Made by a program: the position numbers and the translations under genes
The notes under the pieces: model-generated
Databases searched by the model: none
The model's input: the letters and a program-made list of their open reading frames with translations, nothing else
What the model was told of the DNA's origin: nothing
From: Desulfobacteraceae bacterium CG2_30_51_40
Lineage (GTDB): Bacteria; Desulfobacterota; DSM-4660; Desulfatiglandales; Desulfatiglandaceae
Reading direction: 5' to 3'
DNA: 38,319 nucleotides
NCBI GenBank assembly: GCA_001874005.1
Contig: MNYJ01000053.1
Span: 1 to 38,319 of the forward strand
In this document: in pieces, positions 10,976 to 38,299 of the stretch
How positions within the stretch are numbered: position 1 is the first letter of the stretch
Layout of the letters: every line of letters begins with the position of its first letter

Positions 10976-11121
10976 TAGTGCCCATCCTTAAATGAGATAG
11001 TTTTGTCTAGTTCAAGGCAGGCTATAATTTTAACCGCAGGAATACATGGAGGTATCTCCAGGATTAAAATTTGAGCCCAACGCCGAAATAGGTGAAAATA
11101 GCTATTTACGGATGGACACTA
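10976..11121 (+). repeat. Family B palindromic repeat, copy B1
   Basis: A 146-bp unit bounded by TAGTGCCCATCC and the inverted GGATGGACACTA. Inside, AATTTTAACC and GGATTAAAATT form a second inverted pair, so the whole unit can fold into one long imperfect hairpin. It matches the copies at 21065, 32858, 33911, 36002 and 38154. It lies upstream of the LysM gene. Confidence 0.88.
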
Positions 11122-19950: not shown

Positions 19951-21067
19951 ACCCCTGGACACGCATTTTATGAAAGAGGTCCTTAAGGAAGCAAGAAAAG
20001 GGCTGGGAAATACTTCGCCCAACCCTATGGTGGGTGCTCTCATTGTAAAAGACGGCAAGATTCTGGCAAGAGGTTACCACAGGCGCGCGGGCGCTCCGCA
20101 CGCCGAGGCGGATGCCCTATCGAAATTGGGCGGAAGAAGCGAAGGTGCCGCTCTTTACGTGAATCTTGAGCCCTGTAACCATTATGGGCGAACCCCTCCC
20201 TGCACAGAGGCGATCCTCGCCGCAGGAATAGCAAGGGTTGTTATCGCAATGAAAGACCCCAATCCCGATGTAAAGGGCGGGGGATGCGCCTATCTGAGAG
20301 CTAAAGGCCTTGATATTACGGAAGGGGTCTTGGAGAAGGAGGCCAGACAACTCAATGAGGTCTTCATAAAGTATTCAAAGACAAAAAGGCCTTTTGTCAC
20401 CCTCAAATCAGCCATTACCCTTGATGGCTGGTGCGCTACTTCAAGCGGCCATTCAAAGTGGGTTACAAATGAAAGATCAAGAGCATACGTACACAGGCTC
20501 AGGGCCTTCTCGGATGCGGTCTTGGTCGGAGTCGGGACGGTCATCGCCGATGATCCCCAGTTGACGGTAAGAGCCGTAAAAGGGAGAAACCCTTTAAGGA
20601 TAGTGGTTGATACCTCTCTAAGAACTCCCTACGACGCCAGGGTGGTGCGGGATATCTCCGATTCCGGAACGTTGATTGCCGTAGGACCTGGAGTCAAGGC
20701 GGAGAGGCTTATAAAAATGACCGGGCGTGGAGTTGAAGTTATCAGGTGCCCCGAAGCGGACGGGCGGATTGATCTGGCAGCCCTTCTTGAGAGGTTGGGG
20801 GAAATGTCGGTTACGAGCCTCCTTGTAGAGGGAGGTGCTGAGATAGCCGGGGCCTTTCTACGGGGAAGGCTAGTGGATAAGTTAGTCGTTTTTCTTGCTG
20901 CAAAACTGCTTGCCGGTGGTGACGGTTTACCTATGGCCGGAGGCCCGGGGGCGTTATCAATGGACCGCTGCCTGAGGGTTGCAGATGTTAGAGTCAAGAA
21001 TATGGGCGGTGATATCATGATTACAGGATATCCTGCCTATGCTGGAATCGCCGGAGAGGATAAATAG
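19934..21067 (+). CDS. ribD: Bifunctional riboflavin biosynthesis protein RibD (deaminase/reductase)
   Basis: A 377-aa protein catalysing two steps: deamination of the pyrimidine from GTP cyclohydrolase II, then NADPH reduction of the ribosyl side chain. The deaminase domain has HAEADAL (H56, E58) and [11 protein letters not shown] (C81, C90). The reductase domain begins near 145 with [14 protein letters not shown] and includes [15 protein letters not shown] and a [10 protein letters not shown] segment. The start ATG 19934 keeps the family-typical [13 protein letters not shown]-terminus and overlaps nrdR by 17 bases. ATG 19970 is an alternative, and neither has a strong ribosome binding site. 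The stop TAG at 21065-21067 is the first three bases of repeat B2, so the original C-terminus may have been altered. Confidence 0.95.
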
Positions 21068-21209
21068 TGTCCATCCGGAAATGGCTATTTTCACCGATTT
21101 CGGCGTTGGGTTAAAATTTAATCCTCGAAATACGATAATGTATTCCTGTGGTTAAAATTATCGCCCGCCTTGAACTCGAAGAAACTATCTCATTTCCGGA
21201 TGGACACTA
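21065..21209 (-). repeat. Family B palindromic repeat, copy B2 (reverse orientation)
   Basis: A 145-bp unit with ends TAGTGTCCATCCGGAAATG and its inverse CATTTCCGGATGGACACTA. It is the only copy in reverse orientation. It sits inside the riboflavin operon between ribD and ribE, and its first bases form the ribD stop codon. If transcribed it should fold into a long hairpin. Confidence 0.9.
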
Positions 21210-31655: not shown

Positions 31656-32860
31656 GAAAAAGGGCGGCCAAGGTCGCCGACAAGAAGGCGGCCATAGGGC
31701 CGGATGTGGATCTGAGCGCATTTCAAATGGCTCCGGTACCGCATAAGTATCTTGCGGATGAAGAACTCTGCGAACTTCCGGTTGAGGAGCAGAAGCGTCT
31801 TCTCATGGCAGGTCTTGACGTCACTGAGAAGGAAAGAGGCGGGACTTACTTTCAGAAGGACACCTCAGTGATTCACTGCGAGGCCAAGCAGGAAGGGATA
31901 GAGGTGATACCCATCCGCAGGGCACTCGAGCAAAATGACTGGATACGTGATTACTACTGGAAACTTGTTGCGGTTGACACGGACAAATATACGGCGGCCG
32001 CCGAACTCAACCTCCATGACGGCTATGTGATTAGAGCGCTTCCGGGCACAAAAAGCATTTATCCCGTTCAGGCTTGCCTCTATTTGGATAAAGAAAGCCT
32101 TCAGCAAAACGTCCATAACATAATCATAGCCGAGGAGGGAAGCGAACTTCACATAATCACGGGATGCGCTTCCGCCCCGCACCTCAAAAAAGGTGCTCAT
32201 GTAGGCATATCCGAGTTTTACGTCAAGAAGAATGCGAAGCTCAGTTTCACCATGATTCATAATTGGGCGGAGGATATGGTGGTAAGACCGAGATCCGCCG
32301 CAATTGTGGAGGAGGGCGGACTTTTCATCAACAATTATATATGCATGAAACCTGTCAAGACCCTCCAGATGTACCCGTCCACAGATCTTATAGGTGAAGG
32401 AGCGATCGCCAGATTCTACAGCATAATTGTCGGAAGTCCCGGCTCGGAGTATGATGTGGGAGGAAGGATAAGGCTTAAGAAAAAGGGAACCAAAGCAGAG
32501 ATAGTAACGCGAACCATAAGCAACGGGGCAAAGATAATTGCCAGGGGCCATCTCATAGGCGAGGTGGCCGGCATCAAGGCCCATCTCGAGTGCAAGGGTC
32601 TCATCATCAACGGAGGCGTGATGCATGCCATACCTGAGCTTGAGGCACATGCCGAGGGTGTTGAGATGTCCCATGAGGCCGCGGTGGGAAAGATAGCCGA
32701 AGAGGAGATATCTTACCTCATGTCGCGGGGGCTCACATCAGAGGAGGCCACATCAACCATTGTGAGAGGCTTTTTAAACGTGGATATTCCGGGTCTTCCA
32801 CCTCAGCTCAAGGCAGAGATTGACAAGGTGATACAGCAGGGCGACAAGGATACTATGTAG
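31634..32860 (+). CDS. sufB: SufB/SufD-family Fe-S scaffold protein (SmsB-like)
   Basis: A 408-aa beta-helix protein of the SufBD family, the partner of SufC and site of cluster assembly. The core beta-helix with NIIIAEEGSELHIITGC, the VEEGGLFINNYICM region and the C-terminal HEAAVGKIAEEEISYLMSRGL, which carries the conserved interface with SufC, are visible. It is shorter than E. coli SufB and is a single SufB/D-type gene, as in minimal systems. The ATG at 31634 has GGAG upstream (in GCGGAGTGTG). The GTG at 31625 is possible. The stop TAG (32858-32860) is formed by the first bases of repeat B3, so the C-terminal end may have been set by the insertion. Confidence 0.9.
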   Translation: MHSSEELRKRAAKVADKKAAIGPDVDLSAFQMAPVPHKYLADEELCELPVEEQKRLLMAGLDVTEKERGGTYFQKDTSVIHCEAKQEGIEVIPIRRALEQNDWIRDYYWKLVAVDTDKYTAAAELNLHDGYVIRALPGTKSIYPVQACLYLDKESLQQNVHNIIIAEEGSELHIITGCASAPHLKKGAHVGISEFYVKKNAKLSFTMIHNWAEDMVVRPRSAAIVEEGGLFINNYICMKPVKTLQMYPSTDLIGEGAIARFYSIIVGSPGSEYDVGGRIRLKKKGTKAEIVTRTISNGAKIIARGHLIGEVAGIKAHLECKGLIINGGVMHAIPELEAHAEGVEMSHEAAVGKIAEEEISYLMSRGLTSEEATSTIVRGFLNVDIPGLPPQLKAEIDKVIQQGDKDTM

Positions 32861-33003
32861 TGTCCAACCGTAAATGAGATAGTTTCGTCTAGTTCAAGGC
32901 GGGCGATAATTTTAACCATAGGAATACATTGATGTATTTCGAGGATTAAAATTTGAGCCCAACGCCGAAATCGGTGAAAATAGCCATCTACGGATGGGCA
33001 CTA
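32858..33003 (+). repeat. Family B palindromic repeat, copy B3
   Basis: A 146-bp unit with more diverged ends (TAGTGTCCAACCG / CGGATGGGCACTA). ACTATGTAG occurs on both sides of the junctions, partly because the element itself ends in TAG/CTA. It lies between sufB and the Memo-family gene and supplies the sufB stop codon. Confidence 0.85.
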
Positions 33004-33890: not shown

Positions 33891-33896
33891 TCCTGG

Positions 33897-33910
33897 TTTA
33901 TAAAAATAGT
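33897..33910 (-). repeat. Short left-end remnant of family A copy A4
   Basis: TTTATAAAAATAGT resembles the family A end TTTATATGAAAATAG. B4 follows immediately, and the rest of A4 continues at 34057. Similarity is over few bases, so confidence is limited. Confidence 0.4.
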
Positions 33911-34056
33911 TAGTGCCTATCCGTAAATGAGATAGTTTCGTGGAATTCAAGGCGGGCGATAATTTTAACCGCAGTAATATATTGAGGTATTTCGAGGATT
34001 AAAATTTGCGCCCAACGCCGAAATAGGTGAAAATAGCCATTTATGGATGGACACTG
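33911..34056 (+). repeat. Family B palindromic repeat, copy B4
   Basis: A 146-bp unit from TAGTGCCTATCCG to GGATGGACACTG. The right end has a G instead of the usual A in the terminal CACTA. It directly abuts A4 on the right. Confidence 0.88.
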
Positions 34057-34196
34057 GATAGTAGTCATAGCAGAGTAGGCCGCTATCCAGTCCGTGTTCC
34101 GGCCTTTGCCGGAACGACCACCCGGATTCCGGATCAAGTCCGGAATGACATGCGGCATTTTCATGATTCGCTGTGCCCCAACAGGGCATGAGGGTT
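34057..34196 (-). repeat. Family A interspersed repeat, copy A4 (reverse)
   Basis: The reverse-orientation copy contains GTCATAGC, CCGCTATCCAG, a GGCCTTTGCCGGAA hairpin, CCGGATTCCGG, ATGCGGCATTTTCATG and ends CAGGGCATG. It is joined to B4 without spacer. It lies upstream of the histidine kinase gene. Confidence 0.85.
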
Positions 34197-35641: not shown

Positions 35642-35793
35642 TTTATATGAAAATAGATAGTCATAGCGGCGTAGTCCGCTATCCGGCCCTTGTTCCGGCC
35701 TTCGCCGGGATGACGACTGGGATTTCGGATCGAGCCAGGAATAACATGCGGCATTTTCATGCTTCGTTGTGCCCCTTTCAGGGCGTGACCGTT
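35642..35793 (-). repeat. Family A interspersed repeat, copy A5 (reverse, uninterrupted)
   Basis: It begins TTTATATGAAAATAGATAG, followed by TCATAGCGGCG, CCGCTATCC, the CCGGCCTTCGCCGG hairpin and ATGCGGCATTTTCATGC, ending GGGCGTGACCG. It lies upstream of the response regulator gene. No B unit is inserted, so it serves as the empty-site reference for A6/B5. Confidence 0.85.
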
Positions 35794-35985
35794 AGTGGAG
35801 AAAACAGCAACAGCGAAAACGCCTCCCCTCCTATTGAACGGGAAACAAGAGCCATCTCAATCGTTGTGGCGATCTTAACCTCGATGGTATCAGGAGTCAA
35901 TATTTATGTGCCCAAATCCAGATGAGATGATGAAGGTGGCAATCAAATCCATTGACACTTGTCTCTGCATTACATAATCTTTTCC
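35794..35985. other. Intergenic, no gene recognised; weak promoter-like pair
   Basis: A frame crossing from A5 into this stretch encodes no recognisable protein and starts in the repeat. TTGACA at 35952-35957 and CATAAT at 35973-35978 are 15 bases apart, short for a sigma-70 promoter. It could in principle serve the small gene at 36283, though two repeats lie between. Confidence 0.35.
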
Positions 35986-36001
35986 TTTATATGAAAATAG
36001 G
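35986..36001 (-). repeat. Left-end piece of family A copy A6, split by B5
   Basis: TTTATATGAAAATAG is identical to the first 15 bases of A5. B5 starts one base later, and the rest of the A unit resumes at 36148. Confidence 0.7.
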
Positions 36002-36147
36002 TAGTGTCTATCCGGAAATGAGATAGTTTCGTCGAGTTCAAGGCGGGCGATAATTTTAACCACAGGAATACATTTACGTATTTCGAGGATTAAAGTTTGA
36101 GCCCAACGCCTAAATCGGTGAAAATAGCCATTTCCGGATGGACACTA
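36002..36147 (+). repeat. Family B palindromic repeat, copy B5
   Basis: A 146-bp unit, TAGTGTCTATCCGGAAATG to CATTTCCGGATGGACACTA. It sits inside family A copy A6, with A sequence on both sides. Confidence 0.9.
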
Positions 36148-36260
36148 GTATTCATAGCCGCGTAGACCGCTATCCAGTCCCTGGTATCTGGATTCCGGCT
36201 TGCGCCGTAATGTCGTGCGGCATTATCATGCTTGGTTGTGTCACAACAGGGCATGAACGC
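36148..36260 (-). repeat. Right part of family A copy A6 (reverse)
   Basis: It continues CATAGCCGCGTAGACCGC, CTATCCAGTCC, GGATTCCGGC, GTGCGGCATTATCATGC and ends CAGGGCATG. It is more diverged than A4 and A5. It ends about 20 bases before the small gene at 36283. Confidence 0.8.
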
Positions 36261-36282
36261 TAATGACAAAAGGGAGGATTTT

Positions 36283-38153: not shown

Positions 38154-38299
38154 TAGTGTCCATCCGGAAATGAGATAGTTTCGTCGAGTTCAAAGCGGGC
38201 GATAATTTTAACCACAGGAATACATTGACGTATTTCGAGGATTAAAATTTGAGCCCAACGCCGAAATCGGTGAAAATAGCCATTTCCGGATGGACACTA
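38154..38299 (+). repeat. Family B palindromic repeat, copy B6
   Basis: A 146-bp unit, TAGTGTCCATCCGGAAATG to CATTTCCGGATGGACACTA, with perfect 19-bp terminal inverted repeats. It lies 4 bases after murI. Confidence 0.92.

Follow-up and report, generated by a model that had tools for sequence, protein, structure and literature searches.

We identified a recurrent nested insertion in the genome of Desulfobacteraceae bacterium CG2_30_51_40, in which a 142-bp MITE, termed B, lies within units of a second interspersed family, A. The nesting is real, and B represents a known kind of element, a MITE, with a repeat-borne hot spot. Our favored reading, to which we assign a probability of about 0.8, is that B, moved in trans with 6-bp cuts at TANNTA, entered the TAGATA site of subtype A1 units repeatedly, in different units and at different times. 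It is carried by the nesting itself, a 6-bp duplication, restriction of B to a single site of A, a lack of co-descent between the two families, and a lower divergence of B than of the A unit around it. The window, defined as the whole 38,319-nucleotide stretch analyzed, is contig C183 of this genome (G000; 3.44 Mb in 229 contigs), and sequence of the genome was read directly in targeted stretches of ~0.29 Mb.

Empty and filled units of family A

Two A units 344 bp apart, A5 and A6, provide the primary comparison, and B was found beside A sequence at two further positions in the window:

35642..35800, + strand: A5, an empty A unit of subtype A1, with the target site TAGATA at 35654-35659
35986..36003, + strand: left part of A6, TTTATATGAAAATAGGTA, with the left copy of the target-site duplication, TAGGTA, at 35998-36003
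36004..36145, + strand: B5, a 142-bp MITE with terminal repeats GTGTCTATCCGGAAATG / CATTTCCGGATGGACAC and a near-perfect long hairpin
36146..36151, + strand: right 6-bp copy of the duplication at A6, TAGTAT, decayed
36152..36262, + strand: right arm of A6, TCATAGCCGCG...GGGCATGAACGCTA
33895..34191, + strand: filled A unit, with an A left end, B at 33913-34054 and the A right arm from ~34062
38156..38297, + strand: B directly 3' of the murI stop codon, with TAGATA/TAGTTA flanks; an A right arm begins after it and is cut short by the end of the contig

As the initial annotation had described, A5 (reading TTTATATGAAAATAGATAGTCATAGC from 35642, and 89% identical over its length to a copy at position 2272 of contig C229) is continuous, while A6 is split by B5, its 15 left bases at 35986 being identical to those of A5. 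The right arm of A6 matches a profile derived from five A units with E = 1.5e-12, so that its continuity with A is not chance similarity; this upholds the nesting of B in A, with the continuous unit as the ancestral form. A does resume to the right of B5, although its arm starts at ~36152, after a 6-bp duplicate, rather than at 36148 as proposed. A5 is a paralogue of A6 and hence a proxy for the empty site, not the same locus. In the same-genus genome, G001, the contig stops 18 bp short of the position orthologous to A6, and the region downstream of murI holds neither A nor B.

Family A is non-coding and possesses a common left end, TTTATATGAAAAT, and a right end, TTTTCATGCTTCGTTGTGCCCC..GGGCATGACCGTTAG, with three distinct middles defining subtypes A1 (..AATAGATAGTCATAGC), A2 (..AATACATCGTCATACC) and A3 (..AATGCCCCTTCCC). 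A search with the left end and its site (20 bases, up to three mismatches) yielded 76 matches across the genome, compared to none for a reversed-pattern control. Clear A units were identified in this genome and in the one same-genus genome (74% identity), with other relatives possessing only a short A hairpin module or a right-end fragment. A3 was often arranged head to tail after A1 or A2, the preceding end running into TTTATATGAAAAT (e.g. C120:2111-2400, C213:17189-17500 and C195:9850-10000). Also identified were A fragments adjoining truncated B copies (C31:2350-2547, C158:10680-10800 and C100:15367-15434), indicating that some movement or recombination of A-type sequence postdates the arrival of B and that the two families overlapped in time.

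Among the 76 A left ends, 11 were found with B, one with a degenerate B, and 15 were empty with TANNTA intact; another 45 lacked TANNTA and were all empty, 30 of them reading TACATC (A2), with three left ends unclassified and one cut by a contig end. Presence of TANNTA and the filled state are thus associated (Fisher p = 3e-6), and the A1 and A2 subtypes form a natural control, filling being confined to units with TANNTA. The addition of units recognized by their right arm brought the total to ~16 filled loci, all at one site, set against the 15 empty units that keep TANNTA. These 15 continuous units speak against the idea that the left and right pieces of A are never joined without B. The window itself contains 27 intergenic TANNTA sites; from an estimated ~2,400 such sites genome-wide, ~3 of 240 B copies would be expected in the ~31 A1 sites, compared to the ~16 seen.

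A 6-bp duplication at TANNTA

An alignment of copies genome-wide defined B as a non-coding palindrome of 142 bp (GTGTCC...GGACAC) with ends GTGTCCATCCGGAAATG...CATTTCCGGATGGACAC and a near-perfect hairpin fold (z = -9.2). The B end sequence has 485 matches in the 3.44 Mb genome and 2 in the control, corresponding to ~240 copies. B is classified as a MITE from its short length with terminal inverted repeats, its fixed-length duplication, and its high copy number at unrelated sites.

Outside of A, 47 of 69 B copies genome-wide are flanked by perfect 6-bp duplications, rising to 61 with up to one mismatch. Three such copies with perfect duplications occur in the window:

32860..33001, + strand: B copy outside A, duplication TATGTA
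21067..21207, - strand: B copy outside A, duplication TATTTA
10978..11119, + strand: B copy outside A, duplication TAGTTA

For a set of 58 copies including those in A, 31 duplications were perfect and 42 had at most one mismatch, compared to a mean of 15.8 and a maximum of 26 at the latter threshold when the right flanks of the same copies were shuffled. The consensus target is symmetric, TANNTA, preceded by Y and followed by R. Related MITEs in other genomes follow the same pattern, with 17 of 46 showing perfect 6-bp duplicates and 30 of 46 at most one mismatch.

MITEs derived from IS630/Tc1-mariner elements generate a 2-bp TA duplication, and B resembles them in its short terminal repeats and in the TA at the ends of its insertion sites. 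The initial annotation, noting TA on both sides of B5, had accordingly taken TA as the duplicated target, and most copies are indeed flanked by TA. Were this the whole duplication, with neighboring matches arising by chance, the two middle bases would not be expected to agree between the two flanks, as they do in the large majority of copies. Furthermore, duplicated ends without a terminal TA occur on six contigs of this genome (C60 TAGTGA, C77 TAGAAA, C108 TATCTC, C39 TGGCTA, C28 GAAGTA and C154 GAGTTA) and in other genomes (including TAACTC, TACCTC and CTGCTT), showing that TA reflects target choice rather than the extent of the duplication. We therefore regard a TA-only duplication as refuted, and B, with its 6-bp duplication, falls outside the IS630/Tc1-mariner pattern.

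The same distinction explains why excision of B together with one TA, previously suggested as a check, does not restore an A unit. Removal of B with one 6-bp copy does so exactly in C63 and C152, and only approximately at A6, where both copies have decayed. In its clean form a filled unit reads AAAA-TAGATA, then B, then TAGATA-GTCATAGC; in C63 and C45/C152, TAGATA lies on both sides, and subtraction of B and one TAGATA gives AAAATAGATAGTCATAGC, the sequence of A5. The unit at C132:25796 likewise has perfect duplicates, with a left arm short by one A.

Since many contigs end in or beside B, filled sites might be artefacts in which the assembly was joined across the repeated 142 bp, rather than real nests. 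One pair of loci (C209:8790 and C224:29324) has the left flank, the left end of A and B in common but carries different DNA to the right, a pattern that strain variation, recombination among B copies or an assembly join could produce. As a general explanation, however, assembly joins are very improbable: random joins would not be expected to place perfect 6-bp duplicates around most copies, and several filled units (on C132, C158, C180 and C183) are flanked by both A arms well away from contig ends.

A three-level nest was also observed (C137, - strand, 1-300, with C98:1-240), in which A1 holds B and B in turn holds a third element. This element, seen in one instance across the overlap of two contigs, has ends GTAACCGTTCACGGG / GTGAACGCTTAC (GTAACCG / CGCTTAC) and the 8-bp CGGAAATT on both sides. 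Members of the IS66 family have a terminal repeat GTAAGCG... and an 8-bp duplication, and by its ends the third element may be IS66-like. IS66-type accessory genes, as called by eye, apparently lie on contig C119 (L361).

One insertion or many

Filled units all share one site and one orientation, which might mean that B inserted once, in a progenitor of subtype A1, and that the A-B composite then spread beside empty A1 units. Such a founding composite most simply predicts the lack of reversed B, an observation that stands against repeated insertion, and 5 of the 7 members of one older B lineage sit in A. Phylogenetic reconstruction nevertheless makes this scenario unlikely. A single clade for the B copies in A is rejected (AU p = 5.7e-5, identical rows left free; near-identical B copies and gene conversion could blur this tree, in which C45, the left half of the C152 copy, was labelled "other"). 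Most B copies in A have their closest relatives outside A; for example, the sister of B5 is a non-A copy at C74 (support 98/90). One clade is likewise rejected for the filled A units (AU p = 0.008, in a weakly resolved tree), their clustering is that of shuffled labels (186 of 500 shuffles as low), and a filled and an empty unit, C132 and C196, are sisters (94/92). A and B show no correlation in pairwise distance (Mantel r = -0.07, p = 0.60). Across the 11 filled units where both elements could be measured, B invariably lies nearer its consensus than A does; the assembly comprises 229 contigs, and some of the B copies sit at the ends of these. Together, the absence of clades, the lack of co-divergence between A and B, and the lower divergence of B favor repeated insertion into pre-existing A units, and we infer at least several separate insertions. 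The order previously proposed, A first and B later, therefore holds for each filled unit, but describes repeated insertions and not one event.

At A6, B5 lies ~3% from the consensus between decayed flanking duplicates. As part of the repeated-insertion reading, this locus probably pairs a young B with an A unit that is old and decayed; the pattern fits either recent insertion or conversion of a B that arrived earlier. The same-genus genome (66% complete) possesses A, and a search of it allowing one mismatch found no B end, consistent with A being the older family in this lineage.

Repeated insertion would leave the orientation of B to be explained. All 11 filled units defined by their left end carry B in the same direction (binomial p = 0.001, where C209 and C224, with their common left flank, may be one locus), and no reversed B was found among all ~16 filled loci. 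Given a symmetric target, independent insertions should face both ways, and outside of A the target is used in both senses, as TAGATA (4) and TATCTA (6). Spread of a composite would explain the single orientation but conflicts with the trees. We tentatively raise the possibility, on balance doubtful, that the direction of the transposition complex is set by something beyond the duplicated target, e.g. structure or a protein bound at the hairpin of A.

Mobilization and relatives of B

A fixed-length duplication together with terminal inverted repeats is typical of cut-and-paste transposases. From the 6-bp duplication and terminal repeats of B we infer such an enzyme acting in trans, presumably a DDE-type transposase. 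B would then be a non-autonomous, palindromic MITE for which the transposase makes 6-bp staggered cuts at TANNTA; A1 units carry a ready-made target, TAGATA, 12 bases from their left end, into which B would have entered repeatedly, in different units and at different times. No B ends were found around the matches examined for PF01609 (this genome and eight relatives), PF00665 (this genome and six relatives) or PF01797 (this genome). Five loci were considered as autonomous copies and rejected: in L106, L110, L101 and L077, B ends 1-2.3 kb apart enclose ordinary genes and not transposases, and ordinary genes likewise lie between the B ends of L075. As far as these matches extend, B is an orphan MITE.

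B-type ends with a 6-bp duplication were also identified in other Desulfobacterota, gammaproteobacterial MAGs and Calditrichaeota, and an end with up to one mismatch occurs in 21 of 60 relatives, this genome being the 22nd of 61. Lengths of these related elements are 141-145, 152-154, 165 and 177-178 bp; the clusters (loci L069-L164) are spaced by ~12 bp, and subfamilies or helical phasing are possible. At four loci, two B-type terminal repeats stand face to face and make up the whole of an element of only 28-37 bp: L127 (383-419, with a perfect 6-bp duplication, TATCTC), L123 (5478-5514), L131 (6219-6255) and L116 (1274-1301). These are possibly among the smallest mobile-looking units of such kind. 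Searches of plasmids and Rfam gave no match to B, and viral contigs gave one end match. Neither the terminal sequence of B, in this context, nor the term "TANNTA" was found in the literature searched.

Bacterial MITEs such as Chunjie of Geobacter uraniireducens (178-235 bp, 38 full copies; PMC10969869) resemble B in being short, non-coding and mostly intergenic; they too have terminal inverted repeats, are bordered by direct repeats where they insert, and reach tens to hundreds of copies. Compared by description, B differs in its own terminus, GTGTCCATCCGGAAAT, its near-full-length palindrome, its 6-bp TANNTA duplication, and the lack of an identified parent element. Repeated entry at one position of a palindromic interspersed repeat is also known for ISPsy8, ISPpu9, ISPpu10, IS1397 and IS621, which target REP repeats such that joining the flanks rebuilds the repeat (PMC1525189). 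B differs from these repeat-dedicated insertion sequences: it is a MITE, lacks a transposase, and has a general target, TANNTA, which also occurs in A. Similarly, IS1111 inserted into QMITE2 of Coxiella burnetii (PMC10969869) represents a mobile element nested in a high-copy MITE-like repeat; IS1111, in contrast to B, is autonomous and recognizes a REP-like motif.

Relatives of B thus reach Desulfobacterota, gammaproteobacterial and Calditrichaeota MAGs, with no known transposase. Its single orientation at a repeat-borne hot spot poses a testable question on how symmetric elements choose direction. For an uncultured member of the Desulfobacterota, natural pairs of empty and filled sites define the ends, the target and the relative age of a very abundant MITE.
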